DNA of 64,000 nucleotides from Owenia fusiformis (taxonomy: Eukaryota; Annelida; Polychaeta; Sabellida; Oweniidae): the NCBI GenBank assembly GCA_903813345.2, contig CAIIXF020000011.1, positions 20,133,754 to 20,197,753 on the forward strand, given 5' to 3'. A program made the translations under genes and the position numbers. The notes below the pieces were generated by a model. That model was given only the letters and a program-made list of their open reading frames with translations. It did no database searches and was not told the DNA's origin. Shown here piece after piece: positions 4,777 to 50,700 of this stretch (the first letter of the stretch is position 1; each line of letters opens with the position of its first letter).

Positions 4777-4797
4777 TGTCATCAAATAGTTAATTAT

Positions 4798-19077: not shown

Positions 19078-19238
19078 ATGAAACGCAGATTTGGCATTGG
19101 GTCTATGGCCCAAGATGCGAGTGGCGGCGATGTTATCAAGGCGACATCTAGTGGAGCCCGTGCTAAGTTTGCAGCGTTTGTCAGGAAGGTTAGCGTTGCC
19201 ACCAAGTCCCCACTATCAGCCGAGGTGAATGAGTTAAG
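19078..19238 (+). CDS. Alternative first coding exon A (53 codons plus 2 bases)
   Basis: ATG follows an in-frame TGA at 19066, so it cannot be an internal exon in this frame. It encodes a small basic peptide (MKRRFGIG start, GARAKFAAFVRKVSVATKSP centre). The frame meets the donor TTAAG|GTATGT in phase 2, the phase shared by nine other exons in the cluster and by androglobin exon 1. The function of the peptide is unknown. KRRF and RKVS are possible basophilic-kinase contexts. It is the most distal and one of the weaker members. It is assigned to the androglobin transcription unit by position, strand and phase only. Confidence 0.5.
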
Positions 19239-21400
19239 GTATGTAGATGAGAATTGTCATTATCTGATCGGCATTTTCCGAATGGGTGTTGACCTTTGAT
19301 ACTCTTAAGGATTTTGAGACTAGATTTTTTTGGAACAGGTCGAACCCGCCATTTGTTTTGTCACTGTTCTTTTGGGACTATGTTCTAGGACTATGTTATT
19401 TAAAATTATTTTCCAGATAAAACGTTGAATTCATTCATTAAACATGCGTGATGCTTCGCTACATGACTTCTGCTGGACTAGGTCAAGTAGCAAAGCACCA
19501 CAGATGTAACATCATTTGTATATTGAGAAAAACGAATTTAAATTAAATATGATTCGTTTCATCAGTCACACGTACAATTATAAAAATTGATAATGCGGTT
19601 GCTAGGGTGTCATGTACATGTACAGGGTATTCAATTAGTATTTTAATAATAATTTTGCTATATCTTTGGTTGTCTTGGCTTTTTCTTCGTGAAACGTTCA
19701 CAGCAAAATGCATCTGACCTTATTCTTTTAAATATTCCTGAAAAGGAACTTAGTTTTGACAAAGTTATGGTTACTATGGTAACCATTGTCGTGGGTATGT
19801 GGGGAAAATTCTGACGTCACGTTTGGACAACATTTTTAATGTTCAAAGCAGGATAACATATTATTGGTTAACTAGGAATATGCAGTACAAATACTAATAA
19901 TCCATTCCAGATTCACTTGCTGATCCATCTTCACGTCACAGGCCTGAAGAAGGGGGTAGGCTTCAGGGGTATTAAACCAACCCCTCCCCACTGGCCGAAA
20001 ATGTTTTTAAAAGCATCCATAGTTTTTCACTATTCTGATTTTGGGCCAGAGTGAAAATGTGAACCCCTGGAATTTTTTTTAAAGTGATGTCCTGGCAAAA
20101 GCTGGTAATTACGGGCTTGATTTCGTGAGGTGCTCAAGATAAATGTAAGCATCAATACACATTTGCTCGCTAATGATACACATATTGTGGAGAAAAAAAC
20201 AGGGAACAGAAGTAAAGGCAAAATTAGCGATACTTATAGAACGCCGTGTACATCATGTGCTATTTCTGGTCTTAAAATGCATATTATGAAGTATATCGAA
20301 GCCTTCAATACGTATCAATCACTCCACCCCCAATATTTCAGTTTTGTTCTTTCTTACTTTTCTGAATATTTAAAGAAAGTGTCATTTGAATTCAGTAATA
20401 TTTAAGCTAAATATTGTCAAAGGCTTAACATTATCAATGTTTTGATAATTATAATTCTTGTATTTCACATTTATGTATTGTTAGACAAATGAAATAGCTC
20501 AGTTGCTACAACTGACTGATAACGTGTGGCATTAACTTTGACAGTGAATGATAAAGTGAACTGACAGCCTGGACCCCGGCCCGTATCAGGTCATTGAATG
20601 ATTACGTCCAGTATATGTCCTTCCCAGCCAAAGAGAGATGAATGTCAACTCCGCTTATATTTCACAACACGTTCCTGGGGACGTTCGTTGAATTTATCTG
20701 AAGTTTTTTTTAATTACATTCATATCATAGAACAATGATGGGCTGTATCATCTGGTTCGTGATCTCATGGTCGCGTTTACTGCGGTTAAATTCATTGTAC
20801 GGTTTGACATTTTTGAATCCTGCACATTTATTATCCCAACTTCCCTGTGCCATTGCATAAAGGCAATGACGACAAAGACGAAATGCTTGTCCATGACGAG
20901 GTCTTTAATTCCATTGCATTATCCAAAACACATTGGAGCTAGAGCGAGTGAATCCGGGGCATCAGGGAGAATTCAGCTTTCTGTAATTGTAATTATGAAT
21001 GGATTAAAGTCCATTTTTCCAGAAGCATGTTTATCAAGCAGTTCTAACAGTTCACATACTCCTTGAATTGGTCAAACACTTCAAAAGGTCTTTGAAGAAT
21101 ATTCACTTCACTTCATGTGTCTATGTGTATTAGATACTGAGGTTCTAATGAAGTTGATAAGATACGTTTATGATGGCAAAGTGTATGTAAATAGCAATAA
21201 GCAGTTAAACAATGATCCTCATATACCAAATAGTACAAAATATAGTTGAACATTGAGGACCTAGAAAAAGAAAGGATTTAAAAAAAGGATTCCTGTAGCC
21301 TCGTAGGATTGGCCTGTGTTTTAGTATTAATAGTTACAAAAGATCCAAGACTGATCAGTTTGATGAAAGTAAGTGAGCGCAGGAAATCGAGATTTAAAAG
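19239..21400. other. Intron or intergenic stretch between exons A and B
   Basis: AT-rich. Open frames at 20130-20405 and 20767-21066 lack donors in phase 2, motifs or homology I recognise. An X-box-like palindrome lies at 19770-19783. Confidence 0.45.
19770..19783 (-). promoter_or_regulatory. RFX X-box match (14/14 on the minus strand)
   Basis: The + strand reads GTTACTATGGTAAC, the exact reverse complement of the site at 45486. On the minus strand it fits RYYNCCATRGYRAC at all positions. It lies about 530 bp after exon A. RFX factors act through this motif at ciliary genes; use here is inferred. Confidence 0.5.
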
Positions 21401-21846
21401 ATGGATGTGCATTTGCCGGATATTCAGTCACATCCGAATTCCCAAAATACAATAAGAAAAAATGAAAGCGCTGATGAAAAAGGTGATTCGAGGCCAAATT
21501 CGTCCAAGGCTAGAGCTAGAGGAGTACGTTTCGGATTTCAAAAATTGCCGGAGGCTTTTGATGCGGATCGTTCATCCGTAACTCCAAGAGGGAGCCCTAC
21601 CACCGAGAAGGATTCATCAGAAACACCTCAAAGAACTCCCTCGCCTAGGCTAAGACGAATCAGTATGTTTGAGAGAAAAACACCAAGCCCTTTGGCCCTG
21701 GCACGACCAAAACGATCGAGTGTCTATCTCGGGGTACTTAATGAAGGCACTGACGTTTTTACTAAATCCACTAGAGTGAGAAGAGTCTCGGTCTCAACAA
21801 CTCCAGAACAAGGCCGTCGGAGATCGGTTTGGCATCATCCTCACAG
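21401..21846 (+). CDS. Alternative first coding exon B (148 codons plus 2 bases)
   Basis: Starts at an ATG and runs to the strong donor CACAG|GTGAGT in phase 2. The peptide is rich in Ser, Arg and Pro, with kinase-type motifs: RTPSPRLRRISMFERK, TPSPLALARPKRSS, RVRRVSVST and RRRSVWHH. Base composition is clearly less AT-rich than the flanks, as expected of coding sequence. No folded domain is visible and the chain looks disordered. Shares RTPSP-x-RRxS with exon I. Probably an alternative N-terminus of androglobin, joined to the phase-2 acceptor at 49706, or to the terminal exon at 45550. Confidence 0.72.
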
Positions 21847-23866
21847 GTGAGTACCAAACCGGAATACTTAGGGTGGCGGTTAAGTTTAATCCATATTTAA
21901 GTAACCATCATTTAAAGTGTGCGCCTGACCCGGCTACGTATAGCACAGAGTTTATACTGGCGGATTAGACTAGTTCATTTTTTATATGTGTGTGAAAGCT
22001 TTCTCTTATTTGCGTTTTTTCGTTTAGTACGGTTTTGTTATAATTGCCGAGGTCATATAACCGGGATAAAACAATGATTATCGTTGACTGCCCACACAAA
22101 AAAACATACGTTGAGTGAACAGTGTTATTACAAACAACAGGCTTTAGAATACAAAGCGTAGTGTGATAATAAGCTGCACACTACCACTGCTGCATGTACA
22201 TATTACTAATTTACTAGGGCTCCCAAAGAGTGGATAGGGAGGTTGTGTTTGTCACTTTTAAATTTTACATTTCAAAATTGTCATTTTACATGTCATAATT
22301 TGTTGGTTTCATTCGTTTAGCCAATCAAAACATTGTAAAACAATAAATTGTCTGTTACGTACAATCAATTTTGTTCAGTTTTGATTAGTTGTCAGAATAA
22401 AGTTACGTTCATCTGAATCCATGTATCAAAACAAAAATCCTATTTTCACTTCAAAATACTTCAGTGAGATGAAGGCTCGGAATTGTCACATGCAATAACT
22501 TATTGTCGTATTCGTTATTTTATCTTCTCGATAGTAGCATTTAGTCGCACATTTGATGCCAGGTCACCTTGTCGCGTACCTCTTGGGGAACCCCACATTT
22601 ATGTGTGTACTCATGGAAGTAAATTCCCCGGTGTAGCCGAGAGCCACAAACTTTTCAACAGATTCGAAATGACCAATTTCTCTCATATATACTCTAAATA
22701 TTTTATTATTTAGCACCTACAAAGTATTGCTAATAACCATATGTAATTTCAATAAGGAAACTTATCTGGCTACATATAAATTCAATATCAACACTAGCTG
22801 TTCTCTCAACACGTCCTGGCTTACCTTGTGGTGACAAACCCTGGATTTTCGCTATTTATAGTTTATCAACACCTGGACGCATGCGCATTTTATAGTTTAT
22901 CGGGCACTTTAAAATGCTTAGAATGCACCATATACAATGTAAGTTTTTAAAAAAAATCAATAAAATTGTGTCTGTATACAGTGATTTGGTATCCGAGGCC
23001 CTGGGTTGTATACTTTCAACTTAACAAAAGAAGTATCGTAAGACAATGTCAGATGAAGGATTGTTTTTTTCTGAAAGAGGTTGTGTCATCATGATATTTT
23101 AAAAACCAGTACTTCGGAAATAGCTTTCGTATACAGGCCTAGATTTTGTTTTGCCAATAATACCTTCTGTGGTCTTCAGTGGAAATTAAGAGCCCGATGT
23201 CATAGTTTAATGAAATGCATTCCTTACATTGAAATAACAATACTCACAAAAGTGATACAGTATATCCTGAAGTGTTTTGGGCGCGAATAACAGTTTAGAC
23301 TGTACCGAAAATCTGCTAGGGTTGTCGATAATGGAAATTGTCTAGAGCTAATAAGATATAATCCGGGGATTAATTGTGAACGGAGAAAGTCAGTGTAATT
23401 AATTATGCGTCTAAAATTCGGTTTTCCCGTCAAAGAAAGTCAGATTCTTCTTCAGCTATTTTGATTGATCAATGTATTTTCGAATTTGATGAATTTAAAC
23501 TGACAAAATCCCTCTAAGGACGAGGAACAAATGTTTTTAACTTGCTATGACCTGAACGTCCAACCCGAGTTTTATATGTATGCACTTCAGATTCTTTATT
23601 TCATGCAAAAATCCTTTGACATATGGAAGAGGAAACCCATAATTTAGATTAGAATTTGAAATGTTGAAACAGATACCGCTACTCTGGTATCACTATTCCA
23701 AATATGACTGAGACTGTTATATCTATAAAAATTATTAATTTTATTCATAAGATCTAATTTAATATTTAATATGATGAAACAAATATAATATAAAAAATAT
23801 TTCGTTTATATGAAAAATATGAAATATATATTATAAGCCTAAAAAAAATAAAAAAAATACAAAACA
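21847..23866. other. Intron or intergenic stretch between exon B and the tRNA gene
   Basis: Nothing supported. Open frames at 22483-22713, 23081-23290 and 23224-23433 have no motif and lie in AT-rich sequence. Confidence 0.45.
23861..23864 (-). terminator. RNA polymerase III terminator
   Basis: T4 on the minus strand begins three bases after the tRNA 3' end. Two further T8 runs (23850-23857, 23841-23848) serve as backup terminators. Confidence 0.85.
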
Positions 23867-23939
23867 AGGCCCTTCTGGGATTCGAACCCAGGATCTCCTG
23901 TTTACTAGACAGGCGCTTTAACCGCTAAGCCAAAGGGCC
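23867..23939 (-). tRNA. tRNA-Thr (anticodon AGT)
   Basis: The 73-base minus-strand sequence folds as a complete cloverleaf. The acceptor stem is GGCCCTT/AAGGGCC with discriminator U, the D arm GCTT/AAGC, the anticodon stem CCTGT/ACAGG with loop CTAGTAA, the variable loop AGATC and the T stem CTGGG/CCCAG with TTCGAAT. The anticodon AGT (at 23904-23906) reads ACU after A-to-I editing. There is no intron, CCA is not encoded, and A and B boxes are intact. It sits inside the first-exon array on the opposite strand. Confidence 0.97.
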
Positions 23940-26051
23940 AACTCTATGCAATTGCTCGATTTTATAGATCATATTAAGAAAGCATGATAACCTTTATTTA
24001 AGCGATAGCATTATAGTATGCGAGATTTGAGATTAGTTAATGTGGCTCGATCTAATAATACTCGACAAATGTTGTTAGACCATGCCTATCTAATTGTTAA
24101 TATCAGTAAATCTACTAATATTGTAAGGTTAGAAACATTTGTTTCTTTGATATTAAAATCTACAACGCTAAATCAATAATAATGAGATGAACATATTATT
24201 TGCGCAAGCAGGTACCCAGCTACAGGATTTTCATTTGTTTCGTTTACGTGGTGTCGGATCGATTGCCTTTATTCATTTCTGAAGACTATTAACGTCTCCC
24301 TCGCCATGACTTGACTATGTAGGGCTGTAGGCATGTACCGAGTAAACATAAGTCTTTAGTAATATAGAATTGTCAAGTTTTGAAAGTATATCATGCCGAA
24401 TAGTCCTTCAACAGTCCCCGGGCAATAGCCCCGGTGCAATAGCCTAGTCCTTCGAGCTTCCTTGTACTGGGCCTCTACCGGTATTTTCCCGGGCCTATCA
24501 TGATCTGGTGAGATTTTACCATTCTGTTCAGCCTCTCATCTAAAGAATGTAGGACAATCCAAGGGATAGTAGAGACTATGGAATAAGGATCCCATGGTTT
24601 AGGACAAGTAGCCTATGGAACGTCAACCCCCCCCCCCCCCCTTCTTGGCAGCTGGCCCCGGGGTTGCGGACTCGGGCGGCAAACGGCTTAAAGTACTCCC
24701 ATATATTGGCTATATGGAGACGTGCCGCTAAAGTGAATCACTTTTTTGCCGAAAATCATTAGATGTGGGTCCCATTTTGAAGAAAAACCCTAAATATGGG
24801 TCCCATTTTGATGAAAAAATCCCTAGAACTTTGGCTATTTTTTGAATCCTAAACCTGGGTACTGTACCGCCGGAAGTGGGTCTTGTCTTTTAAAAATTAT
24901 GAAGTGAGTCTAATTTTGAAAGAAAAACCCTAGATGTAGGTCCAATCTTATAGAAAAAAATCCCTAGATGTGGGTTATGTTATTTTGAGTCCCCCCGGAA
25001 CAAAAAATGTGACCAGTACCCCCCCCCCCCGGGTTTTGGCTAGTTTTGGCCCCAAAAAACTGCTCTTCCCTGCATAACGCGGGCAATTTAAATAACAAAC
25101 TGACATTACTGGGCATGATATTTTTAATTTTGGGTATTACCAGACATTGTTTTTTTTATTTATTGGTCTCTCAAGACTAAAGGCCCAAAACTTCAGCCCA
25201 GCCCATACGGCGTCTTCCTAGTTTTCAAATATGAATGAATTGTTGGTCATTGGTTTAGAAATTTTGGACCCATTGTTTTGAGATCACAAATTGGGGCCTT
25301 TTGGAATCCAACCATAGGCTTTGATATGCTATCCAATGAAAACTTCTGGTTTCCAAACTTATGGAGGGGAGTGTAGGCCACCCAAGCAATAGTGAGGCTG
25401 GCTCCTGCTCATTAGCGAAAATTTACAAATTCATTTGGAAATAATGGACAAGGTGCCAAAAAATGAAATATATTTTGAAAAATTTCCAAATTACATTTTT
25501 GCAATGTTGTCTCTGAATCTAACATCTTTGGCATTGGCAATTGATTTCGCTTTTATAAAAGAGAGCTTCATGGTATTTATTACTTGCCATCAGTCTCTGG
25601 CCATCATGGTTACCAGCGTCTGTATTAGCATTGGTATAGTAAGCTGTATTATTATTATGCAATGGCGTTTTATTGTATGTGTTGTTGAGACCATTACGAT
25701 ATTGATATTTCAGATATAAACAAAAGCTATTCATTTGGCAATATCCATTTATGGATTATGGATTACTTCATCCAATGCAAATGACCCATAAGAATGGTCA
25801 AGAACTAGTCGAGAGGTTTCGTCATTTATATCCATTGAACTAGCACTCTGAGAGAATGTTGCTCTGATGATGAGTGGGGTCAATCTAGTTCCCACTGAAA
25901 TGCAACAATAAGTCGTCAATTATTTTATGGGAATTTACCAGCCTCTGATTAAAAAGAATGAAGACGATTTTACCTGTGCCAGGACTATGTTTAGAATCAA
26001 AATAATTTGTGTCCAGTCGACTCACTGCTAGACTAAAGAAAAAATAACAAA
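23940..26051. other. Stretch between the tRNA gene and exon C, with a degenerate repeat
   Basis: At 24620-25035 two poly(C) runs flank diverged copies of a unit containing TAGATGTGGGTCCCATTTTG and AGAAAAACCCT, probably a decayed repeat element. The hydrophobic open frame at 25435-25719 lacks any motif and is not called. Confidence 0.45.
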
Positions 26052-26218
26052 ATGGATTTATTTCGCAAAAAGGCCAGTGCCATAGCGACTGGAGGGGGTG
26101 CGTCAGGGTTAGGATCAAGTCAGGGAGGACTTACATCTCTTCGACGCATGTCTAGGATTTTAGGGGCAGCTGCATCCGGTACATCTTCGACTTTGAAGGA
26201 TAGGAATCAAAGTCCGTC
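26052..26218 (+). CDS. Alternative first coding exon C (55 codons plus 2 bases)
   Basis: ATG after an in-frame TAA at 26034. It encodes a Gly/Ser/Ala-rich basic peptide (MDLFRKKASAIATGGGASG start) with an LRRMSRIL kinase-type motif and ends at CCGTC|GTAAGT, an excellent donor, in phase 2. The second base pair of the split codon (TC) specifies Ser whatever follows. It is too short to be noticed by frame length, but composition, donor and phase fit the other exons. A near X-box (13/14, at 26076-26089) overlaps the coding part. Confidence 0.6.
26076..26089 (+). promoter_or_regulatory. Near X-box match (13/14)
   Basis: AGTGCCATAGCGAC differs from RYYNCCATRGYRAC only at the second base. It lies 24 bp into exon C. 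It could be coincidental, as the bases are coding. Confidence 0.3.
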
Positions 26219-29200
26219 GTAAGTACATTTTGTCCGCTTTTCTATATTTCCATTCTTTCTTCATATAGATTGGGAACGCAGCTGAAAATTCTGTTCTAAC
26301 GATCTAACTTCGAGATAAATTAAAGGCCAGAAAAAGACCGAATATAAAGGGAATGACCTCGTGTCCTTAATTAGATTTTTCGGTGCTTTAATAAAAATCG
26401 AATAAAATCCACCAAATAAATTAAACCTATCATTAAAATAGACAATTTATCTTGAAATATGTGTAGTGCGTCTACCTTTTCACATTCTCACATAGTATGT
26501 CAAGGCATTAATACAACAAAAAATGACAATTATTAGAATTGCTCTATAAGAGGAGGAATATTTTATATTCGGAATAGATAGACTTCCTTGGAGTTGTGCT
26601 CTTTGAATAGATTTATAGCTAGGGTAAATTCTAAATTATCAGACAACGACAGAATAGGGGACTTTTATTCCTGGTCATCTGGGGAAACAAAAGCATGTTT
26701 TCGAAGATTGTAAATCCGTAGTCGCAAATGAATTGTACATATCTATACACACGGAATACTTTATTCTGTTTAAATGACTACATCAATCAGTGAATGCCAT
26801 AATATAAAAGTCATACCAAATTCATATTATCCGTAGCAAAAACAAGGTAGGGTTTCTAAGGTCTATGAGCGGGTGGTCATTGTTAAGTTCAAGTGTTCCG
26901 TACAATTGATGTTGACAGGTAGAATAAAATTATGAAATAATGTTTCCAGTAAATTATACGATATTATACAGTGGTCCTTGGAATCATCCGTGGCAACCAT
27001 GTTTTTATCCCAGTTTGCATTATTTCAAAGTCTTTGAACAAAACCCCATTTATTCCACTTAAGGTGGGTACAGTATGACACTTATTTGACCTGTTCGACT
27101 TCACTTCTTAAAAGAGAGCTTCGTCTTCACTCTTTCAGTTTACAATAAATCTCTGATCTCACCGAGAACCTATTCGGACTACCTTAATAATGATGTGATA
27201 GATCACAATATAATACACACTATTGACAGTTGCGTTTCTAAATAATATTGTTATCTGAACATTTATTTAAGATACAACCGACCCCCTCCCCCAATTCTAT
27301 CGAAGAAGAATCTGGCTGGGGTGCCGGTGTAAAAGGGTAGGAGGTCCTATTAATTTATGGTTCTACTCTCCATTGATTTATATGGCGAACTCTTTCCCTT
27401 ATTATGTTATACACAATCAGGGCCAGTAAGGGCCTTTAAAAAGGGGGACCATAATCCCTGGGAGACCATCATATCTTTCACACTGGACTTGCGATGACTT
27501 GCGAATTTTGAAATATTGACACTTTATAACCATAACATAAGTTATTTTCACAAAGACTTACACTGCACTAACTTGTTCTAGTAGATCAATGTTTTCGATT
27601 GCCATCATTGACCACGGTCTACGTTTACCAAAGGGTTATGTAATTGCAACGATAATGTCAATTTTCATTGCGTATTAGATAATTTGCAACACCAAGTCGT
27701 ACCCATGATTAAAGTATGGCGAGATAAAAAGTAATGGGCAAGACAAAATGAAGTCCGGATTCAATGTTTTCAACCGGTTTAAGTTCTATCGTTTTAGAGA
27801 TATTTTGCACTGACCTTCGTGAAGGACTAAAATACTAGTCGCCGACAAGTGAAATTGGTTAACTGAAATAGTTAGAGTTTCAAAAGGTTATGACATATTT
27901 TCCGACATTTTTCACGTTTTTCTCATTCTATGTATTTTCTATGTATTTATGATCATACGTATAAACTGTTTTTTCTCCTTCTCTCTGATACGGGAAATAA
28001 AGATACAATAAACGTTTCCAATCAATTCCCTTGAACAAGCACTATGTGGTATTGTGATCGCCTCCGAACTCCTGAACTTGCTGTAAACACGATTTATTCA
28101 CTCCTAAAGCAATGAAATACATTTTCGGCAAAATTAGCCTGTTTTTGAAGACTTGTATGCAATTTGTCGTGCATCAAACACCCTGAGTTTTTAAAGTAAT
28201 AGTCTTTCATCAAAATCCCTATGAACCCCGCTGTCTCCCGCACCTTCTCCGTTCTTTTCACAGTTTGACCTGCCATCTTTCTCAAGTTATAGGGTTTGTT
28301 TTTACACTTTGTTGTTGAGAAAGAACCATAGGAAATATTGGAGAAATATAGCATAAGAAATCAATGCATACAAAGATCTCGGTTCTGATATTTCATGAAA
28401 AATTAACTTCAAAATCAAAATGTTCTGTAACTACTGTATATAGTGTTAGAAATAGCTAGATACTATAGTAGATACACAACACCTTATGAATGGATAGTTT
28501 TATCAAAATGAAAGTCGATCCTTCAGGCATAAATTGTGTTTATTAATTTATTCAGTGAAATGAAAAATAATGTTAGCCTATTCCAATGCTTTTGTGTTTT
28601 CTCTGTTTACACCATTCTTGTCAAAACTTGACATCTTTTAGGGGCTATGAGGCATTTGTTGAAATTAAACATTCTAGACTTACAACAATAATTTTCAATG
28701 CATATCAAATTTTCTCATTTTTTCTTCCTCAATTGATTTGTAACCAATACTTGATTTATCTTTGTGTATTTTTTCAACTATGATATCAAGAATTGAAAAA
28801 ATGAAATTGAGACTTTGGGCTTCTCTAAAGAACGAACTACAATACGAGGCTGTTATAAGGTTTATTTTAGTCTAATGAATAAAAATGTGGGAGTTAAGAT
28901 TTGTCAATGGAATCAGTATGATAATTCAGGTCGTGGTAGAGAGATATATAATTTGCAATTGGAATAATAATCAGCAAAGAGGCATTTCATTGATTTGTTA
29001 TTTTAACAAGCATGATTATACTCAGAGATCGAATGATATAAGAATATATTGAATAAGAAATATATACCATTGTAATAATCTACTTCAGTACTTCAGACCA
29101 CCTATGACGTTTCAGCACGAGTGTTTCCTTAGGTAAAAAGATCAAACCTGAGTTGAAGAGAAACAATGATATTGCTTGACAAATTAAACCTACATACATG

Positions 29201-29568
29201 TGCGAGTGTGTTTAAGAAAAATACAATGAATTTAAAATCGTTTGGGGAAATGAACGGTACATAAAGTCGATGTGGGTGTGATTTTCCGTATGAATGGAAC
29301 ATATGGGGCCAATGCTGATAACTGAACAATAAAATCATATCATTACTGTTATGAAGTGGTTCAATGATTTATCAATTGATACCCTCACGTAATAATTGCG
29401 TGCTCAGCTAGTATTCAAATAAAATAAAGGAAATGTGAATTCCTGGTGAGATTTAGCTTTCTCAGATCCTGAAATTAGGACACAAAGAATAACACATAAT
29501 CATTGCTATTTGATAGTAAAAGTTAGCTTTTGGAAACGTCTCCATTCATTTTGACAATCTCATATACC
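26219..29568. other. Stretch between exons C and D without supported feature
   Basis: AT-rich with no paralogous repeats noticed. Open frames at 28094-28354 (minus) and 28586-28783 (plus) have no motif or matching donor. Confidence 0.45.
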
Positions 29569-29726
29569 ATGGAAAGATTACGGATTACACGGAGATCAAC
29601 CGCATCGTCAATTAGTAACAGTAATAAAGTTGCAAGAAAGCAGTCACGGACAGCATCGTCTCAAAATCACAGAACAGAAGCATCCCCGCAGCAAAGATGG
29701 AAGAAAATTGGGTTCAAAGCCATTGT
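29569..29726 (+). CDS. Alternative first coding exon D (52 codons plus 2 bases)
   Basis: The ATG at 29569 is chosen because the frame upstream contains only a TTG. It encodes a basic Ser-rich peptide (MERLRITRRSTASSISNS start) with RRST and RKQSRTASS kinase-type motifs and stops at the donor ATTGT|GTAAGT in phase 2. No folded domain. Assigned to the first-exon array by its strand, composition and phase. Confidence 0.6.
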
Positions 29727-31098: not shown

Positions 31099-31238
31099 AT
31101 GGAATCAACTAATAAAAGAGCTAGTCTATCAGGTGGACCATTGCGCAGTATTCAACAATTGGCAAGGTTGAGCAACAAGAGGTTTAATAGAGCATCCACG
31201 ATAAATCATTTTGCACTGCCCCCAAGACGAGATGATGA
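31099..31238 (+). CDS. Alternative first coding exon E (46 codons plus 2 bases)
   Basis: Short exon from ATG to the strong donor GATGA|GTAAGT, phase 2. The peptide is basic (MESTNKRASLSGG start, ARLSNKRFNRAST centre) with a KRAS-L and an NRAST kinase-type context. The split codon GA|x gives Asp or Glu, the same first two bases as androglobin exon 1. There is no homology outside the cluster. Confidence 0.58.
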
Positions 31239-33276: not shown

Positions 33277-33419
33277 ATGGCGACAAAGTTGACCAGACAC
33301 GGTTCAGGTGTTAAGGTTCTTAGCAAGATAGATGAAAAACCATCAAAATCACCAACCAGGCCACACTCAAACGTGACCATGGACCATGGAAAATCTGCTA
33401 AAGGTCGAGAGAGTGTCGG
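33277..33419 (+). CDS. Alternative first coding exon F (47 codons plus 2 bases)
   Basis: Starts MATKLTRHGSG and continues as a Lys/Ser/Pro-rich peptide with a KPSKSPTRP proline-directed cluster. The frame ends at the donor GTCGG|GTATGT in phase 2. It has TRHGS instead of a perfect RRxS motif. It is less AT-rich than its flanks. A member of the array by position, phase and composition. Confidence 0.55.
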
Positions 33420-34967
33420 GTATGTTCTCAATTTTAATAACCTTGGTATTATCTGAGACCATCATAAAATGTCAAAATTTTATGTAAGTCTCAGGTACTA
33501 TGAGCCAAGTTGTATTCTACTGTAGGTGATGTTTTGTAGGAGTATTTTTTATGTTGAGCTAAAATGTGACAAATAAGTACCTCCAGTATCTATCTCTACA
33601 TTAAAAATACTCAAACATTTACTTATACACGTATGCTTACATAAACGATACTTATGCAGGATGGAGCTCAGGGCTAATCTGGTCAAAACTCAAAAAGGCG
33701 AGGCATATTTGAAAAGGTGAGGCAAAGATGTAAAAGAGGGTGTAAATCTCACCGTTTAAGTCGACAAAACGCCTAAAATGTAAATAAACTTTGGGGAGTC
33801 ATTTGCCTTACCTGTCTTATAGCAAACTACGCCCATAAGTGACCAAAAACTAATACTCCTTTTCCTTATAAAGTATAGGACTTTTTCTTTCTTCATTCAG
33901 TCAAGCAGTGTTGATAAAGCTAGTTTACTTAAAGGTAGTACGGCATCGAGCTAAAACGGCCATCTCCTCCCCATCCCCAATATCGTCTATCTTTATGGCA
34001 GTGTTTCCTATTATGGGATCATCAATCTGTACTAGGCTATCCCTGCTAAGCTTTAGAGCAAAAGGGGCCCTGATAAATCAGAATGAAAGCTTCCCTTTTC
34101 TTGGCATGTCCATGGGGAATGTAAAGTATATGTCAAACTATAAACAATGTCCACATAACAACATCCTTGAATCTTGGACAATAGTGAGTGCAAGACTTGT
34201 CCATCTCTGTGATTGATCATGTTGTCAACTTTAAGTTGTTTAGTAAGCTATGTGGTGTCAATTGTCAATTACAGTTGTGTTGACCGTCACTATACTCACA
34301 TTAAGAGGTGATGTTTGAAGTGGCACATATTCACCAAGTTCATTTGCGTTTTAAGAACCGCATCTGGGTGTATATATAAATGATGAATGAACATGATGTT
34401 TTAAATTTTAGTAGAAATTGAACAGTGATGGTCAGATATAACTACTGAAATGATACACATATGCATTGAATGGACGAAACACGATTTCAGGGCACGACTT
34501 TGTGCAGTTTTGAGCAAAACAAAACATTGCAAACATTGAAATTCAAGGCAACATTCAAGAATAGCATCTAAAGTGATTGATGACAAGACAAGACATAAAA
34601 TCACACAACATACTGATAAAAAATCAAGAAGAATACGTGTATAAAATTGCGTGACCATTCAATAGAATTAGGCCACCTTAGTATTAATATGAATGTTTAT
34701 TGAAGAACTTATAGAAGGAGAAATAAATTACAATGTAATTGGATCTTAGATAAACACTCGTAGAACAAGTGGGATCAGAATGATTATTTAAATAAAACGC
34801 AAACTTAGGTATAAAGAAATATATGACTGACTATTTGCGGACTACTTTGAAGTGACGTTTCGCTAATGGTCCGAATGAGGTTAGATGGCTTTGTGAGCAT
34901 TGATCCTAAATGAGGTTACTGTTGGTGAACCAATTTTGTTGGATTGAACGAAATACTTAAACATCTT
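33420..34967. other. Stretch between exon F and the long-TIR element
   Basis: A minus-strand frame at about 33930-34070 reads an acidic, protein-like segment (SRDSLVQIDDPIIGNTAIKI), interrupted upstream by a stop. It may be a fossil of an unrelated gene or element. The plus-strand open frame over the same bases (33908-34216) is its shadow or chance. Confidence 0.4.
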
Positions 34968-34972
34968 ATCAT

Positions 34973-36458
34973 CACGCCTAACCATCGCGTAAGCAGGCGT
35001 CATCGTACAGCGTCAAAAAATACAGTAGTACAGTTTTCTGTACGGTGACGAAAATTAACTGAGTTGAAGCAAAAACTATAATGAGGGGTTTAAAAAGATT
35101 AATTAGGTGAAAATAAATACGATTTCGGGTGTAATGAAAACAGCATTCTCTGAGGAATGGTTTTAACTTTCTAATTATGATAAAAGTTTTTCGAGCACTG
35201 CTCGGATTTTTTCTGACTGGATCGGCCCACATAATCGACTCGAGAGAAAAATGGTGTTTTTTTCACTTTTCGTTTGGTTATTATTTTCCCTGTCGTCTGA
35301 GAGTATGGATTATTTTTATGAGAATATGTATTTGTTATCTACACATTTTAGAACAGATGAATATTCGGCAAATAATCATTCAGTGTATTTATTTAAAAAA
35401 GATCAGAACTGTACGGTGACGCATCAGCTGTACGGTGACGCTTCCTTAGATTTTATGAAGTGCTCTAAGCTTACTGTTCGAACAAGAGGTAAAGAAGCGT
35501 CAGATCTACATGTACATTATCACTGGTAAGTATCAAGCGAAGGTTACAGCCGTCACCTTCGCATTTAAGATGGCGGACAGAAAGTATTCATTTCGATATT
35601 TTTAGTTTTCATGGAATTAACTATTTGAAAGTTGATGTAATGCTTTGGTATCATTTGAACTAAACCAGGCTTTTCTCATATGACTAACAAAGATAGCCTA
35701 CACAGCCATCTTGACCCCATGCAAGATATTGCATCTTTCATCCTAAAGAGTCACACGTGCAAGATGAGATTTACTTGTGACATCCCTTGTTTTAAAACAT
35801 CAATAACATAGCAACAAGAGAGTTTTTGGTTTCATGATCTTTACCGTATCATACATTTCCAGTAACCTTCCATTAAGCTGTGGAAGATATCGTTGAACTG
35901 TAGCGCCCATGCACTATATATGAACAAATGATCATACTCCAGAGTTTCTATTTCATACAATCTTAGTCTCATTTAGTTCATCAAAGCATAGCGTCACCGT
36001 ACAGCTGGTGCGTCACCGTACAAATTTGATCTTTTTTAAATATACATAATGAATGGTTGTTTGCTGAATCTTCGCCCGTTCTAAAATGTTTAAGTAACAA
36101 ATACATATTCTCATAAAAATAATCCATACTCTCAGACGGTAGGGAAAATAATAACCAAACAAAATGTGAAAAAACAACCTTTTTTCACTCTGGTCGATTA
36201 TGTGGGCCGATTCACTCAGAAAAAATCCGAACAGTGCTCGTAAAACGTTTATCATAATCAGAAAGTTAAAACCATTTCTAAGAGAATGCTGTTTTTATTT
36301 CACATGAAATCGTATTAGTTTTCATCAAATTAATTTTTTTAAACCCTTGTCATAGTTTTTGCTTCAAAGCAGTTAATTTGCGTTACCGTACAGAAAACTG
36401 TACTCCGCTATTTTTTGACGCTGTACGGTGACGCCTGCTTACGCGATGGTAAGGCGTG
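34973..36458. mobile_element. 1,486-bp DNA transposon with about 470-bp terminal inverted repeats
   Basis: The arms 34973 to about 35446 and 35986-36458 are inverted copies starting CACGCCT(A/T)ACCATCGCG. ATCAT at 34968-34972 and 36459-36463 is a 5-bp target duplication. The motif GTACGGTGACGC (allowing one change) recurs about seven times, subterminally and at the inner arm ends, like transposase-binding iterons. Both arms keep an 80-codon open frame (35177-35419 plus, 36013-36255 minus) with about 70% identical residues. No transposase motif was recognised, so the superfamily is open. It ends 200 bp before exon G. Confidence 0.88.
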
Positions 36459-36656
36459 ATCATATCGATGGACTACTAAACAGCTTTTGGAATGTTATTC
36501 AGGCCTAAGTGGATTAAACATTCTTTGAAGATCATAATATGGCTTGATAGAACACTTTTTTGTGTGTGATAACATTAATAATCGATCTGGGAAGGAAGCT
36601 TTGTTACTGTATACTAGGCAACGGTATATACACAACGTTGCTACGATACAACGAGT

Positions 36657-36670
36657 GTTGCTATGGCGAC
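36657..36670 (-). promoter_or_regulatory. RFX X-box match (14/14 on the minus strand) over the exon G start codon
   Basis: The + strand reads GTTGCTATGGCGAC. Its complement GTCGCCATAGCAAC fits RYYNCCATRGYRAC at every position. The ATG of exon G (36663) is inside the motif, so the transcription start must lie close by if the site is used. Confidence 0.5.
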
Positions 36671-36850
36671 AAGCGTACCTCACAAGCGACGGTCGCAGTC
36701 TCCAGGAGGAAAAAGTGGAGTCTTGTCTCCTTTAGTATCGAATGTTTCCTCTAAAGAGGAACGGATAAGATCAGGTCAAGGAAACAGAAATCGACCCAAC
36801 TCTTCTGGTCCTCGCCAGCCTTCTGCCAGAAAACGATCGGGTAGATATAG
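36663..36850 (+). CDS. Alternative first coding exon G (62 codons plus 2 bases)
   Basis: ATG to donor TATAG|GTGCGTGAGT, phase 2. The peptide is strongly basic and Ser/Pro-rich (PHKRRSQSPGGKSG, then ARKRSGRYR at the end). KRRSQSP combines a basophilic and a proline-directed kinase context. The ending RSGRYR resembles the internal PPSGRYRLER of exon H, hinting at common origin. The upstream neighbour is a 1.5-kb transposon, and an X-box overlaps the start. Confidence 0.7.
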
Positions 36851-39896: not shown

Positions 39897-40426
39897 ATGC
39901 TACAAGCAACACTGTCGACACCTATTGAAAATAAGCGGCAAAGACGGACTGGGGCAAGGAGTCCGGGGTCTAAAAGTCCGTCTAGTACCAATAGACGGAT
40001 ATCTGATGTAACTTCATACATCAGTAGAAGCGCACAAGCGCAAAGTCCAACATTAAAAGCACGTAGGCATAGTCATGACCCCGGCGAGCGCAAATCGCCA
40101 GTCTATTCCAGTTTGGACGAACGTGGCCCGAGGCCCCGGAGTGGTCGTTTTGGGCTAGAGCGACCTGACTCAAGAGGAAACGGGATTTTTACCGAGCGTG
40201 TCCCAAGACCCCCAAGTGGTCGTTACAGGCTCGAGCGAACTGACTCGAGGGGAATTCGGGTTGTCACCCCGGACCAAACTGCCGACCGTAGCCCGAGACA
40301 CTCCCCACTTGAGAGACGTGTATCTAGTAAACGGTTGGAAAGGCAGAACTCTGATGTATCAAAGAAATACAAACCAGAACATAAAGTATCTTCATCGAAT
40401 CGAAGTCGACGTATCTCCCACTACAG
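39897..40426 (+). CDS. Alternative first coding exon H (176 codons plus 2 bases)
   Basis: The longest member. ATG to donor TACAG|GTACGT, phase 2. A disordered, Arg/Ser/Pro-rich peptide with many kinase-type sites (NRRISDVTS, ARRHSHD, RRVSSKR, SRRISHYR) and SP pairs. It contains an internal tandem repeat of about 24 residues: ERGPRPRSGRFGLERPDSRG followed by ERVPRPPSGRYRLERTDSRG. GC content is clearly above the flanks. No folded domain, signal peptide or membrane segment. Its length and composition make it one of the most convincing coding exons in the array. Confidence 0.8.
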
Positions 40427-42801: not shown

Positions 42802-43175
42802 ATGGCATCAAAGAAAGGCAGCAAACCTGAGAAACACCTTACATTTAACCTCCCAGACATAAACGCGTCCAATACCACGGGCGGGGGAAGGAGGAAAAGT
42901 ACCTTTGGGTCTGAGCGTACTCCAAGCCCTAGCAGGCGAAATTCAGGTCACCTTAACACAGCCAAAGACCAACCCACCAGACGCCCCCATCGTAGATCTA
43001 CCCTTTCTGTCATACAGGATCCCGAGGGTGGTGAGACACTGCAGGTCCAAGATCTCGCGAGATCACAAGATAGACGTGGGAGTTCATCACCCAGGCGTGG
43101 GTCAAATTTTGCCATAGCAACGGAAGCTGGAGAAGACATTGAAACAACGATTGAGACAAGACAGAGTTTTGATAG
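42802..43175 (+). CDS. Alternative first coding exon I (124 codons plus 2 bases)
   Basis: ATG after an in-frame TAG at 42772; runs to the donor GATAG|GTCAGT, phase 2. It encodes MASKKGSKPEK, then an Arg/Ser-rich chain with RRKSTFGSERTPSPSRRNS, RRPHRRSTLS and RRGSSSPRRGSNF. The MASKK start is reminiscent of the MASKQTKKK start of androglobin exon 1. It shares RTPSP-RRxS with exon B. Low AT compared with its flanks and free of stops for 144 codons, so coding status is likely. Confidence 0.8.
43108..43121 (+). promoter_or_regulatory. Near X-box match (13/14) inside exon I
   Basis: TTTGCCATAGCAAC differs from RYYNCCATRGYRAC only at the first base. It lies in coding sequence 306 bp after the ATG, so regulatory use is doubtful. 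Confidence 0.25.
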
Positions 43176-45485
43176 GTCAGTTAATAGATGTAGTAATAGT
43201 AGAATTATAGAAGAGAATGTACCCTATCGTAAATGAGGATACGGGTCACAATACATTTGTCACCAAAACAAGGTATTCAGAGTACCTTCATTATGATAAT
43301 CGTTATGATACCTCTAATTGAATGTTGATGCCATATATGAATTAAGAAATTGTTTTTGAGTATACACTATATACAGTAAGTCCAGCCCCTCCCGTAGTTT
43401 GCGGTCCGTAGTAAAAGAGAATATTGTCCGCAGAAATATTGTCCTTGTTGGCATTTAAACCACTGGTCCGAACTACATCTTATGATACATAAAGTCACAG
43501 TAAACGTGAACGTATGAAAATCCGGACAATACGTCCTATATTATTAAAGAAGGGGTAAAGCGTACTTATTTAGATTTGTAACATGATACCCATGAGGGTC
43601 ATTCATGGATATATATGGAAGAAGGACAATAATAATCACTTATAATCATCTCTGGTGATACATCATATTATGTGAAATATTCAGATTTACGCCATCTTTA
43701 TATATGGTCTGTTAATTTTTTCACAAGTAGACCTGCATTCAAACGTTTCATATATTAATCGATTTGATCATCTGATAAACCATGACATCTCATTTCTTCT
43801 CAGCCCTGAGATGTTTCAGGTGAAACAGAAAGATGCTATGAGAATCGGAATGCGATTTGATAATATTTAAGGGTTCTCATCTGGGTCTACTTGAAATCAC
43901 TCTATATCTAAAGTAACATTTATTGGTTGTATAATTGTGCTATTTGGTGCTTTCACTACGACAAAGGATAACGCATTCTATGGGCTTTGTTTCTTTGCGT
44001 TGTGTTACCACAGATTATGCAATCACTAAATCATGTTTTAGTATGCAGTTTTGGTGTTGAGATGACCTTTGAGTTGACTTCAAGTAGAGTTTAGGTCCTA
44101 ATGATAGCTTTGTCGTTGAGTGACTTCAAGTTAAGCTCGTGTAGTTTAGGTCCCAATGACCGGGCCTAATGATAGCTTTGGTGTTGGGTTGATTTCAAGT
44201 TAAGTTCGTGTAGTTTAGGTCCCACAATAATAGCTTAGGTGTTGAGTTGACTTCAAGATAAGTTCGTGTAGTTTAGGTAACAATAATAGCTTAGGTGTTG
44301 GGTTGATTTCAAGTTAAGTTCGTGAAGTTTAGGTCACAATATATGATAGCTTTGGTGTTGAGTTGACTTCAAGTTAAGTTCGTGTAGTTTAGGTCACAAT
44401 ATATGATAGCTTTGGTGTTGAGTTGACTTCAAGGTAAGTTCGTGTAGTTTAGGTCACAATATATGATAGCTTTGGTGTTGAGTTGACTTCAAGTTAAGTT
44501 CGTGTAGTTTAGGTCACAATAATAGCTTAGGTGTTGGGTTGATTTCAAGTTAAGTTCGTGAAGTTTAGGTCCCAATAATAGCTTAGGTGTTGGGTTGACT
44601 TCAAGTTAAGTTCGTGTAGTTTAGGTTACAATGCTAGCTTTGGTGTTGAGTTGACTTCAAGTTAAGTTCGTGTAGTTTAGGTCACTATATACGATAGCTT
44701 TGGTGTTGAGTTGACTTCAAGGTAAGTTAGTGTAGTTTACAGTAGGTCCTAATAATAACTTTGGCGTTGAGTGACTTCAAGTTAAGTTCGTGGAGTTTAG
44801 GTCCCAATGATAGCTTTGGTGTTGAGTTGACTTCACTTCCACTTTCTAGGCTGAGATCAATGAGGGCTTATACCTGGCTGGGGACAATAATTACTTAAGA
44901 GACGTGGTACACTCCAAGAATCCATGTAGGACAATGAACATGCTTTCCTTTAATAAGCCCCTTTGGATATCACACATTATTCGAGATCACACATTAGAGG
45001 ACGATTACCTGGGGTTGACTAAACCTTACCGTTTGTTTGTTTGTTTGTACAGTATGTTTGTTTGTTTGTTTTTATTCATAATTGTGAATTTTCTATATTA
45101 TCGGCACCCTCAAGCCCAGAGGATTTTAGAAATTCACATGAAGTTCTCTTTTATAGAAGCTAAATCAATGTATTGAAAATGTAGTGCTGTGGTGATTATT
45201 TCTGTGGCATGTTTACCTTATTTGGAGCAAGGCAAACAATTCCATGCTATCGCTTCCTTTAACCTGGGCTACTGTAAATGAAATGTTTCCAGTGGCATGA
45301 TTGCCTGTAGTTTAAACATGATAAAGTAGCGTCGAACAGGATCAAAACAGAAGCATCTATCGAAGAGAAGATATACATTTTCATGATAGTAAGGCTTATT
45401 AGTAATAAGAACTGTAAAACTGTAAAACATATCTAATAAAAAATACAATTATATATTAATTGGAAAATAATTACATTCTTACAAT
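43176..45485. other. Stretch between exon I and the exon at 45550
   Basis: Contains the minisatellite at 44050-44836 and a (GTTT)n microsatellite at 45031-45073. The open frame at 44904-45176 runs through the microsatellite and is not called. Confidence 0.45.
44050..44836. repeat. Minisatellite, about 13-14 units of 55-65 bp
   Basis: Unit consensus contains GGTGTTGAGTTGACTTCAAG, TAAGTTCGTGTAGTTTAGGT and (C/A)AAT-(A/G)ATAGCTTTGG. Units vary by small indels, and three central units are nearly identical, showing recent turnover. Confidence 0.93.
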
Positions 45486-45499
45486 GTTACCATAGTAAC
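45486..45499 (+). promoter_or_regulatory. RFX X-box match (14/14)
   Basis: GTTACCATAGTAAC fits RYYNCCATRGYRAC perfectly and is identical, in reverse, to the site at 19770. It lies 51 bp before the exon at 45550 and about 0.8 kb before exon J. Confidence 0.5.
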
Positions 45500-45549
45500 A
45501 GGGATGCTGATAACGCATGATGTTTGTCATGCTCTCGAAAATATTCCAG

Positions 45550-45652
45550 TGACTCTGACAAAACAAGAAAAACCGCAGATATTGAAGTGGAACGGGAGGA
45601 CGTAACGTACTTTGAAAAATTTGGACATCCCTTGAATGAAGAAATCATTTAA
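45550..45652 (+). CDS. Possible shared terminal exon, phase-2 acceptor with stop
   Basis: A TATTCCAG acceptor ends at 45549. After one base to complete a split codon, 33 codons are open (DSDKTRKTADIEVERED, then TYFEKFGHPLNEEII) to a TAA. The frame upstream of the acceptor has a stop and no ATG, so it would be an internal or terminal exon. The phase fits exons A-I, which lie upstream, so it could give them a separate short 3' end instead of, or in addition to, androglobin. No AATAAA lies close by. The peptide looks like real protein but I do not recognise it. Confidence 0.42.
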
Positions 45653-46297
45653 AGATCGACTGAGTTTAATTGAATTTATTGTCCGATAATAATTTTAAAA
45701 AATCTATTTGTTTGACCCATTTTAACTATAACAATACAGCACGATAAACAGTTCGATTTTGAAATACAATCAGTGGTAAACAGAGGCATGGTTTTGAAAA
45801 GGAAAGCAAATAATTTGGATTGACACATCGTTGTGCGTTTTTAGAGAAACCTTGAGCAAATATAATTGTTAACTTCTAGAGAAGTTTTGAATACAAGGTG
45901 TATAGCAACCATACATGGTACTCACAGGAACACTTTACATAAAATGAACAAAATGAGAAATTAAAGTTGATTTGGGATAAAACAATAGCGTAAATGATGT
46001 TAACAAAGTTCTCGATCGCATCTCTACCATAAGACATCAATATTTTGGATGTAATGACAAACTGGAACCTGTTTAAAGTTCAAGTAATCGTGACGTGACA
46101 TAAAAGTCAGGGATAAATTGATTAATGCAATCGATTAATCAGTTAATCAATACTTATTGGTGAACATCGGAATAACATTGACATGCTGACATGCGACAGT
46201 TTCAAATGGAATGCCTTGTAGATATTACAAATGTGCAGTGGGGGTTATAAAGACTATTCTATTGATACCAACAATAGACCTTTAAAATAGACCAAAG

Positions 46298-46614
46298 ATG
46301 AGTCGTCGGGGAGGAGGTGCGAATATGTTGGCGGCGGCCGGGGGGATCAAGAAAGCGTCGATAGAAAGACGCCGTGGAGCTGCAAAAGATGGTGTTCCTA
46401 AGGAGGGGGATGTATTCTATCGCATAGTTAAATCTTATCCTAGAATTCCGGAAATTCCCGAAGAGACTTCGTGCAATATCGCCAAACCTATAGAATTCAC
46501 CCCAGGGTCTGAGAAATACAGGCAACTGGCTGCATCCCCCGGTGGGAGAAGGGCGTCTATACTGAGTGATAAGTCGAGAGAAGATATGACTACACCCATA
46601 TTTGAAGATCATAG
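46298..46614 (+). CDS. Alternative first coding exon J (105 codons plus 2 bases)
   Basis: ATG to donor CATAG|GTATGA, phase 2. Starts MSRRGGGANMLAAAGGIKK, contains KKASIERRRG, a more ordered middle (GDVFYRIVKSYPRIPEIPEE) and GGRRASILSDKSRED near the end. Less AT-rich than its flanks. It lies downstream of the 45550 exon and only 1.2 kb before androglobin exon 1, so if spliced forward the nearest suitable phase-2 acceptor is androglobin exon 2. It is the best single test case for the alternative-first-exon idea. Confidence 0.74.
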
Positions 46615-47793
46615 GTATGAACTGGTATGGATGATGTCAACATCATCTATCATCTTAACTAGGACCCATATTAGTTGTGTCCAAACTGAGCCAATGACTA
46701 GGGTTTTCTCATTCATTGATGATAAATAGTAAATGCAAATATCAAGCTAACTACTGTTCGTTTTAAGAAAAAGCCATGGTATTATTAAGAGGTTTTTCAA
46801 AAGAAACCCTGGTAACAAGATAATTACATTTATTCTTGTCCTCCGATTAGCAATAGGTACATTGGGGAATGGGGATGTTGTGGTTTACTTAGTTCAGGTC
46901 ATTGGTTTTGATAATAGGTGTAGGAGTGTACCATAACCCTCAAATTAGAATCTCAGATTAGGCTTATGTACTTTTGGCGGGGGTGTAGCATCCGGGGGTT
47001 GAAACATCATTTTTACATTCTGATTGGGGGTAGTATTGAACATTCTACTAATTCGTTGCCTGATCTTCCATATTCCAATTGTTAGACCTACATCGTATTA
47101 GATTTGTCAGTGCATCGTTTCTACTCTAGTACATGAGGTCCAAACATTAACACGATGTCGTCACGCATAGACGAAATAAGAGAGGTTACAGTGGATGGTG
47201 AGGTTGTGGTTGTGCCGAGTTGAGATTGTGTTTACGTTTAGTCGTGTCGCCATTCGGATTCTGGCGCAACACGAGAGTCAATGTACATGTATATGGTCAC
47301 TGCCAGTCTTACAGTACCTCTTAAAATATTGAAGTCTTATTTCAGGCTCTTTAATTTAAGATGAAAAACATTGTACGACAATGGCACTCGCACAATTGAA
47401 GTGGATTGTTCTCGATGGATGGGACTGAGGACGGTTATGTTGTGTTTGTAGTTCCAAGTTGTGTGTTAGGCTAATGTGACTGACATTGTGTATGGAACAT
47501 TCAAACTTCATGACATCCTTGTTTATTTAACATTGTACATTGTTATTCGATCCGCAAGGTTCCATGCCATTCAGGAGACTAAAATGTTTTATTCTATAAT
47601 GAAAAGATTTTTGCTACTGATCTGCACTACTGCCACCTTTCAACAGTGACACGAAGTATATTATCTCGGCATTGCGCATGCGTATTGATATTTTGGTAAA
47701 ATTGACCTTGAGATCGTGGCAACCAATTTTATTCTTTTGAATGTCATATTAACCTTTATATGAACAAATATCCGACCCAGATTGGGCTCTAAC
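46615..47793. other. Stretch between exon J and androglobin exon 1; presumed promoter region
   Basis: No gene seen. TATATGAACAAATATCC and a half X-box (GTGGCAACC near 47716) lie in the last 100 bp before the ADGB start codon. No TATA box at a fixed distance can be argued. Confidence 0.4.
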
Positions 47794-50700
47794 ATGGCCT
47801 CAAAGCAGACAAAGAAGAAAGAATCTTCAAATCGTGTGAATTCTGCACAAGGCAAAGAGTAAGTTTCCACCTATTTTTTTCGGAAAAAATAAAAGCTTGG
47901 TTGGAAACAACATGGCTCGCATATTTACATTTTTTTGTCCAACTCCAAAGCCTAAAACTAACCACATGTGTACTAGATATATACCTTACCACACACCTAA
48001 AATAATCTGAAAACTTATGTGTAATGTAGAATAGAATAGAGAGGAGTTGAGCCATCATCGATGTTAGATAGACAAGATTTACCCCTTGGGTGGGCCCAGA
48101 AAAAGAAAATTTGGCTCAAAAAAGGCCTTAAGGCCCCAAAAAGTCGGCCTTTTTGGTCATATATGGGGCTTGAAAGGCCTTATTTTTTAATTTTAGGCCA
48201 AAGTTTGAAGAAAATGGGCCTCAAAATTCCCATCTAGAAACCTCATGACACGATATGTATGGGGATAGAACCAGCAGTAGTAGGCTACATAGAATGAGAT
48301 CATTAGTTGTATGTTGGGAAAAAATGCAATAATTAATACAAGTATGTTTCTAAATCCATACCTGTTTTTTTGTAGCCTCTCTGTTGCACAATTTCACATT
48401 CCAATGTGGATACATACAGAAGGCTACAATGTACATGTACCGTATGTCAAATAAATTGTTTATGATTGATCAATGACCATTATCTATGCAAGCCAGTGTG
48501 TCTTATTTCACAATTGCGACATGAATTAGTATTGCTGCGAACTACATTTGTAGATCACATTGTAGATGAAGTAATGGTAGTATGTATGTATTCACTGCAT
48601 TATGGTATAGAATGGTTCAGGCAGAATAAATTTTTCATAATATATTTATGACAACACAAAACATACACAAATTTCTTATAGATGAGATCAATATTTATAT
48701 CAATAGCTATTGGTCCTTTGAGCATGGTAACCAACCTAAAAAATTTCCAGTTTTTATCCCAAAACTTAGAAATTGCCACCTTTTCTATCTATAGCATCTA
48801 TTAGCATCTGTAAAAATGGCACTGATTCATCTTGAATTCTCACTCAACAAGTTGTTAAATCCTAAATATTAGCTGTTTTGGTCAAAATATTCCGATATTA
48901 CTATCTGCAGGTGGTAACATTTATTTGTGTTAATATAGTAGGTTGTAAATTTTTCTGGCTATAAGTTTGCAAGATGCAAGATTTTAAACATGTAGCATAT
49001 AATTTTCAGCATGCTGCAGAACAATAAAACTACATTTAGAGATGTATAGCAGAACTAAGATTCATTATCCTTGGAATTATTCTGTTTGTGAATATTTAGA
49101 CCAGATTATCATGTGTGTGTAGCTTGTAAGTCAACAGTTACTTAAAATCACATTATAAATTCAGAAATGTTTTTATAAAATATTCTGTGTTTTTATTATT
49201 TGTTAAAAGTACATATGAATGAGCATATTGGATTTCGTTATGGGGAATTGTTTTTGAAAGTATCCTAATCTCATAACACAACATGACCTAATCTATTTAC
49301 ATTTACACGTACAGTGTATATATTAAGCTGTGACCCATTTAGATTTCCACTTGAATCTTGCATGTTCATACTTCACTCTTGACCACATGTATCTGGAGTT
49401 TTAAGAAGTAAAGCATGTAAAATAAACTAATTTATAGCAGCAATACATTATTTGAGTTTTGGATACATTTAACAGTAAGAAAACTCTAGATGTTCTGATG
49501 AGTAAGGATGGCTGTATATTCTTAGATTAGAATACTTGTGGCATACTCTATTGAGTATTCTATTCCATGAATTTGTCTGTATTTCAGTTGTGTGAAAAAA
49601 GGAAATAATACAGGGTGAGCTAAGAAAACATCCATATTTTTTATGACATGACTTGAAATAATGAATGAAAGAGATTGCTAAATTGTCTATTTTTTTTACT
49701 TTCAGAGCGGCAAGTATCGCAGCCAGCGTTGGAGCTACAGAGAAAGCACGTCAAAAGGTCATCATCTGGCCAGAATGGAGCGACACAGATGTCAATGGAG
49801 AAAAATGGGTAATTATTTTTATACAATAAATTTTTTCCATGACTTTCACCTGTAAAAATGGGTAATTGTTTTTATTCCATGACTCCGCCCATAATCTGGG
49901 ATTTTAGAGACTAGAAGAGATGCTGTGCAGTGAAACCTGCCCATGTGTAGTTGATGTGAAAATTTCAAAAAACACATTTCAACAGTTAAATGTGAGCATG
50001 TAGGAGGGATCTAACTCTAATGTGGACCCTGTCATCTACTCTATAATGAAGTCAATTTGAAGAAACTTTACACTATTATGACTATAGAATTTTCCTTCAA
50101 GATCAGACACAATTAAATCACATGAGGCAGGAAAAGGAAAATGAACATGTGCAAAGGATAATGACGGTAATGATTGAGGGTTAAGCAGGAATATGAGAAA
50201 AGAAGGCAAACACAACTTGGTGATATTAGTAACAGTGCCTACATATCTTCTTAGATACGTTACTATATCCTTATTGTATTAATATGATTTCTTCCATAAG
50301 ACCACGGAGATACAAATACATGTACTGTATGTGAGACCCTGAGTACAGGTGCTCATTCGCAATCTAGTATTGCTCTTATATGGCACTGATAAAGGTCTTA
50401 TTTGTATAATTAGAGATTGTGTTGTCTACAAAAGATTGTTAAATAGTTTGAAGGCACTGTACGTAATATACCCAAGAATTTTTTTTATCTCAGAAACAAA
50501 TAAAAAATCTTGTAAAATAGTTGATAATTGAGAATATACATGAGAATATAAAAGAATATATAATGAGAATATAATGAGAATATATAATTGCAAGGACCTT
50601 GTCTTGAATTTGTTTTCAAATGAGGTGGCCTTCTGGTTTTGTTAATTATCCTATCTCTCAGGTAGATACTCATTTTTGTGAATATTGATTTTCTGCCTTT

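Follow-up and report, generated by a model that had tools for sequence, protein, structure and literature searches.

A candidate array of about ten alternative first exons upstream of the androglobin gene in the annelid Owenia fusiformis

Introduction

In UGT1, the clustered protocadherins and GCNT2, tandem variable first exons precede a constant part and join it in the same reading frame, and the variable exons of UGT1 are similar to one another, almost identical in length and preceded by a conserved upstream motif (PMC1885805). Plectin (PLEC) has twelve first exons that are joined to exon 2 (PMC8468861). Among invertebrates, the shortened Dscam genes of chelicerates have tandem 5′ cassettes, each with a promoter (PMC4835542). 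Here we analyse a 64,000-nucleotide stretch of the genome of the annelid Owenia fusiformis (contig CAIIXF020000011.1, positions 20,133,754 to 20,197,753; hereafter the window), in which the gene for androglobin (ADGB), a ciliary calpain-globin, appears to have, besides its canonical first exon, about ten alternative ones that are strung out at its 5′ end and are for the most part unrelated to one another. Judging from reading frame and position, these ten exons, A to J, are probably alternative starts that are spliced to androglobin exon 2.

The closer parallel among the described systems is plectin, where unrelated N termini are likewise set on one body. Unlike plectin, the body here is androglobin, the Ser/Arg-rich tails carry kinase-type motifs and the array is known from sequence alone. 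The original prediction had compared the array with the protocadherin and UGT1A loci; this likeness fits poorly, as exon paralogy and a shared upstream motif were both tested and neither was found. Unlike those of UGT1, the array exons range in length from 46 to 176 codons, show little paralogy and have no common exact motif upstream. When all 45 exon pairs were aligned, only C with H and G with H scored above all 200 shuffles, in low-complexity stretches and without correction for the 45 tests. The Dscam cassettes resemble the array as invertebrate tandem 5′ units, but consist of two or four duplicated immunoglobulin exons, in contrast to the single, mostly unrelated exons found here.

Androglobin is predominantly single-copy and linked to cilia (PMC13331133). 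In Tetrahymena, Adgb most likely belongs to the central-apparatus projection C1b/C1f, and Cfap174 co-precipitates with it; Chlamydomonas FAP42, which has a calpain-like domain, is thought to occupy an Adgb-like place in this projection (PMC8175508). The body and the canonical exon 1 of the Owenia gene are those of ADGB, from which the proposed array of starts would set it apart. No such array was found among the androglobin papers listed in literature searches, which were largely limited to openly available main text, or in those examined for isoforms and exons.

Results

All ten candidate exons are plus-strand open reading frames (ORFs) that begin with ATG and leave two bases after the last complete codon at a GT donor, as the original prediction had listed them. 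Together they span 19.1-46.6 kb of an AT-rich window (GC 0.30-0.39 per 2-kb step), whereas androglobin starts at 47.8 kb and continues past the window end. In the following, donors are written with a slash at the exon boundary, and the two extra bases are understood. Exon A (19078-19238, 53 codons, AAG/GTATGT) contains an in-frame coding segment of 18.6 bits. It is followed by exon B (21401-21846, 148 codons, CAG/GTGAGT, donor score 9.3), exon C (26052-26218, 55 codons, GTC/GTAAGT) and three weak members, namely exons D (29569-29726, 52 codons, TGT/GTAAGT), E (31099-31238, 46 codons, TGA/GTAAGT) and F (33277-33419, 47 codons, CGG/GTATGT). Further downstream lie exons G (36663-36850, 62 codons, TAG/GTGCGT), H (39897-40426, 176 codons, CAG/GTACGT) and I (42802-43175, 124 codons, TAG/GTCAGT). 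Exon J (46298-46614) has 105 codons at its phase-2 donor 46614, which competes with donors at 46624 (phase 0) and 46541 (phase 1).

The claim that every exon ends at a good donor applies to A, B, F, G and H (scores 4.4 to 9.3, from a matrix written, like our acceptor rule, for this analysis) and fairly to I (3.0), but not to J, whose donor is weak (1.6), nor to C, D and E (1.1, 0.6 and 0.8). In these last three the intron side is perfect (GTAAGT) and the exon side poor. As the eight placed donors of androglobin itself score 0.0 to 5.4, the donors of C, D and E fall inside the range of this gene. The set of ten was present as proposed, but one short phase-2 candidate had been overlooked between F and G: MELRANLVKTQKGEAYLK (33661-33716, plus strand), with the donor AAG/GTGAGG and a score of 7.9. 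Because an AG lies one base 5′ of its ATG and its frame, by eye, also continues F, it may be either a first exon or an optional internal exon.

Several features distinguish the ten exons from their surroundings. Each exceeds its own flank in GC content (0.41-0.52 in the exons, 0.31-0.40 in the flanks), and an in-frame stop lies 1-36 codons upstream of each ATG. A purine occupies position -3 of the first ATG in 10 of 10 exons, compared with 49% of 777 regional ATGs (probability 8e-4), and G occupies position +4 in 7 of 10, compared with 20% (1e-3); both occur jointly in 7 of 10 exons and in 10% of the regional ATGs (1e-5). Coding-like composition of at least 8 bits was detected in frame in A, B, C, G, H, I and J. 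This score reflects general amino-acid composition and responds in part to GC content, as the antisense frames of these exons pass as well. An acceptor scan flagged one site only, inside I; C, D, E and J, with donors under 2, were outside its reach. As a set, the ten look like coding first exons, and most look real.

The exons also agree in phase. When donors at least 20 codons after the ATG were ranked by score alone, the phase-2 donor was best in A to H, and a phase-1 donor scored higher in I and J. When donor and coding signal were scored jointly, A to I were all assigned to phase 2, with weights of 0.66 to 1.0. In I, the phase-2 donor wins only if coding signal beyond position 43030 is included. 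In C, admitting donors from 15 codons onwards brings in a phase-1 donor at 26097 that outscores the phase-2 donor (4.7 vs 1.1), though not in the joint score. A phase-2 GTAAGT or GTGAGT donor creates a stop just after itself, which is why the ORFs of B, C, D and E end there. However, best-donor phases among chance ORFs from shuffled sequence were even (47, 45 and 43 of 135), so that the donor-made stop leaves the phase of the top-scoring donor unbiased. The probability of the observed agreement is about 5e-5 for A to I (9 of 9) and about 4e-4 for 9 of 10, close to the figure of about (1/3)^9 given in the original prediction.

Downstream of the array, androglobin begins with its canonical exon 1 (47794-47858, plus strand), which reads MASKQTKKKESSNRVNSAQGK followed by GA, ends in phase 2 and resembles human androglobin exon 1. 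Exon 2 (49706-49808, plus strand; WPEWSDTDVNGEKW), the proposed common acceptor exon, has phase 2 in and phase 0 out, and remains open behind each of the ten exons. The phase 2 of exon 1 and the in-frame acceptance of phase 2 by exon 2 are thus both confirmed. Exons 3-8, which could be phased, and about six more with edges set by eye follow at 51762-62385 on the plus strand, and the gene extends beyond the window. Exons 1-8 join into a single open frame, and the joined N-terminal translation matches the PDB chains of FAP42 (E 3.6e-11) and calpain-1 (E about 1e-3). The androglobin gene is real and a calpain-like N-terminal region is present; the permuted globin domain with its IQ motif would fall past the window end. 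Among the eight phased exons, phase 2 is accepted by exons 2 and 8 alone; exon 8 also ends in phase 2, which exon 9 is therefore expected to accept. We also considered exon 1 as an internal exon, since an in-frame AG lies 13 bases before its ATG, and set this aside because the pyrimidine tract is poor by eye. No relatives were confirmed for androglobin or exon H in viral contigs, or for androglobin in genome contigs.

Most of the exon peptides carry motifs of the basic-basic-x-Ser/Thr type, which is used by PKA, PKG or CaM kinases. The pattern [RK][RK]x[ST] occurs 25 times, in nine of the ten exons, compared with a mean of 7.2 and a maximum of 19 in 5000 shuffles of the same peptides; F is the sole member without it, and B, H and I contain 4, 4 and 7 copies, respectively. 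RRx[ST] alone occurs 15 times, in six of the ten exons, compared with 3.3 in shuffles. The motif-bearing tails could serve signalling or placement. The Tetrahymena Adgb paper (PMC8175508) mentions neither PKA or protein kinase A nor cAMP.

Androglobin mRNA increases with RFX2 in human cells (PMC7949040), and a choanoflagellate mutant in cRFXa has less of it (PMC13331133); for this reason we examined the window for RFX X-boxes. Three perfect matches to a strict 14-letter motif were detected: on the minus strand, GTTACCATAGTAAC at 19770-19783, some 0.5 kb past exon A, and GTCGCCATAGCAAC at 36657-36670, which overlaps the ATG of exon G; and again GTTACCATAGTAAC at 45486-45499, from which exon J is 0.8 kb and canonical exon 1 2.3 kb downstream. 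The first and the third are at least 0.5 kb from any exon start. Twenty order-1 shuffles of the window yielded one match in all, and column-permuted versions of the motif gave at most 2 matches in 2999 trials.

A number of results weigh against an array of androglobin first exons, and they concern the exons themselves, their partner and their promoters. An ORF with a donor is easily obtained by chance: 20 order-1 shuffles gave 135 such ORFs, an average of 6.75 per 34-kb strand (ATG, at least 40 amino acids, donor score at least 0.5). With a nearly equal cut-off of 0.3, the observed numbers in 13.5-47.7 kb were 16 on the plus and 8 on the minus strand. An ORF plus donor by itself therefore proves little, and the case rests on the further features. 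Pfam searches with the ten exon peptides found no family above cut-off, and PDB searches with four of them gave best E values of only 1.3 and 1.6. The proposal that all ten exons are in phase 2 stands for A to I by joint score, but J prefers phase 0 (donor 46624; 0.71 vs 0.22 for phase 2). D, E and F contain no 8-bit coding segment in the in-frame composition scan.

It may be that only A, B, C, G, H, I and J are exons, with D, E and F being chance ORFs, an explanation that overlaps with an array of androglobin starts and that we consider a distinct possibility. All three lack an 8-bit coding segment, D and E have donors that score below 1 and are closed by a stop within the sequence G-TAA-GT, and ORFs of this kind arise in shuffled sequence at the rate given above. 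On the other hand, D, E and F share with the others the purine at -3, the G at +4, the raised GC content and phase 2, and D and E carry the kinase-type motif.

The partner of the exons was weighed separately. Given that the exons agree with one another, a match to exon 2 would arise by chance one time in three. The exons could be alternative first exons of another gene on the same strand, whose body lies outside the window or consists of small exons that escaped recognition. The evidence for the exons is independent of androglobin, this explanation needs only a one-in-three coincidence of phase, and the window ends inside androglobin. The exon scans are also insensitive: from 13 labelled androglobin exons after the first, the internal-exon scan recovered 2 and the coding-segment scan 6 (2 and 10-14), so that a common exon of small size may have gone unnoticed. 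Donors of at least 2 were required in the internal-exon scan, which is blind to C, D, E and J at their donors. Against another gene, the array extends as far as canonical androglobin exon 1, and between J and exon 2 these two scans of limited sensitivity flagged no further coding stretch on the plus strand; the skipping of a whole downstream gene would also be unusual. We regard a partner other than androglobin as unlikely. An array of alternative first exons, as originally predicted, is the best reading, and of the recognised bodies that fit its phase androglobin lies closest, with the qualification that D to F are weak and J is ambiguous.

No exact 6-8-mer, the only kind of motif covered by this search, recurred in the 11 upstream segments more often than in the highest-scoring of 60 random sets; ATTGATA, present in 7 of 11, equalled that maximum. 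Within 300 bp of 12 starts there was no excess of best X-box match (mean 10.5 vs 10.4), FOXJ1-like sites (0.25 vs 0.41), TATA (0.25 vs 0.28) or CCAAT (0.83 vs 0.69). As X-boxes are not enriched near the starts, the X-box point rests only on the perfect matches anywhere in the window. With the looser published consensus, RTNRCC N1-3 RGYAAC (PMC2375033), 60 shuffles had on average 0.37 matches and never more than 3, and at least 3 were obtained with 38 of 1000 permuted motifs. The three X-boxes are thus very unlikely by chance under the strict motif and a modest excess under the published one, and the link to RFX is suggestive. The presence of an X-box is in itself no predictor of regulation by RFX (PMC2375033), and in a human reporter assay RFX2 raised the activity of the androglobin promoter only together with FOXJ1 and a distal enhancer (PMC7949040).

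The little sequence kinship among the exons and the missing common promoter motif would also fit separate short genes, or exons of noncoding RNAs, rather than alternative starts of one gene. However, the common phase and the motif content argue for one partner, and no second coding exon was flagged alongside any of them, again by scans of limited sensitivity, which makes independent units improbable.

Other features of the window were noted. Upstream of the array, three C2H2 zinc-finger ORFs lie in tandem on the plus strand (2544-13481), apparently a local expansion; the second and third have an N-terminal part with 159-bp tandem repeats of the IKEEI type. A tRNA-Thr (AGT) gene lies on the minus strand between B and C (23867-23939). 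An imperfect inverted repeat between F and G (34967-36464; arms of 357 and 130 nucleotides, 87-88%) is perhaps a mobile element and contains chance-like ORFs on both strands, and 56-60 bp units form a tandem array between I and J (44092-44835). Neither of these two repeats, at 35.0-36.5 kb and 44.1-44.8 kb, overlaps an exon of the array. Within an androglobin intron, a 47-bp unit occurs in five copies with 97% matches (60045-60281).

Discussion

In the arrangement that we propose, each first exon would have a separate transcription start, and the phase-2 donor of the exon nearest the cap would join the pyrimidine-rich acceptor of androglobin exon 2. As a first exon has no acceptor, a transcript would keep the exon at its cap and skip the first exons in between. 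The predicted products would combine a constant calpain-globin body with varying Ser/Arg-rich tails that are probably disordered, most of them with basic-basic-x-Ser/Thr motifs that are putatively phosphorylated. Different ciliated cells could in this way place or regulate androglobin differently.

A more far-reaching idea, which we put forward as speculation and think rather unlikely in its full form, is that androglobin, which has stayed predominantly single-copy across flagellated eukaryotes, has been diversified by about ten starts and tails instead of by duplication. The phosphorylatable tails would form an RFX-controlled, N-terminal address-and-switch code that sets, for each ciliated cell type, the position of androglobin in the central apparatus and its response to kinases. 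Independently of this idea, an array of alternative starts with kinase-type motifs would show how a single ciliary protein can be adapted to many kinds of ciliated cell while its gene stays unduplicated.

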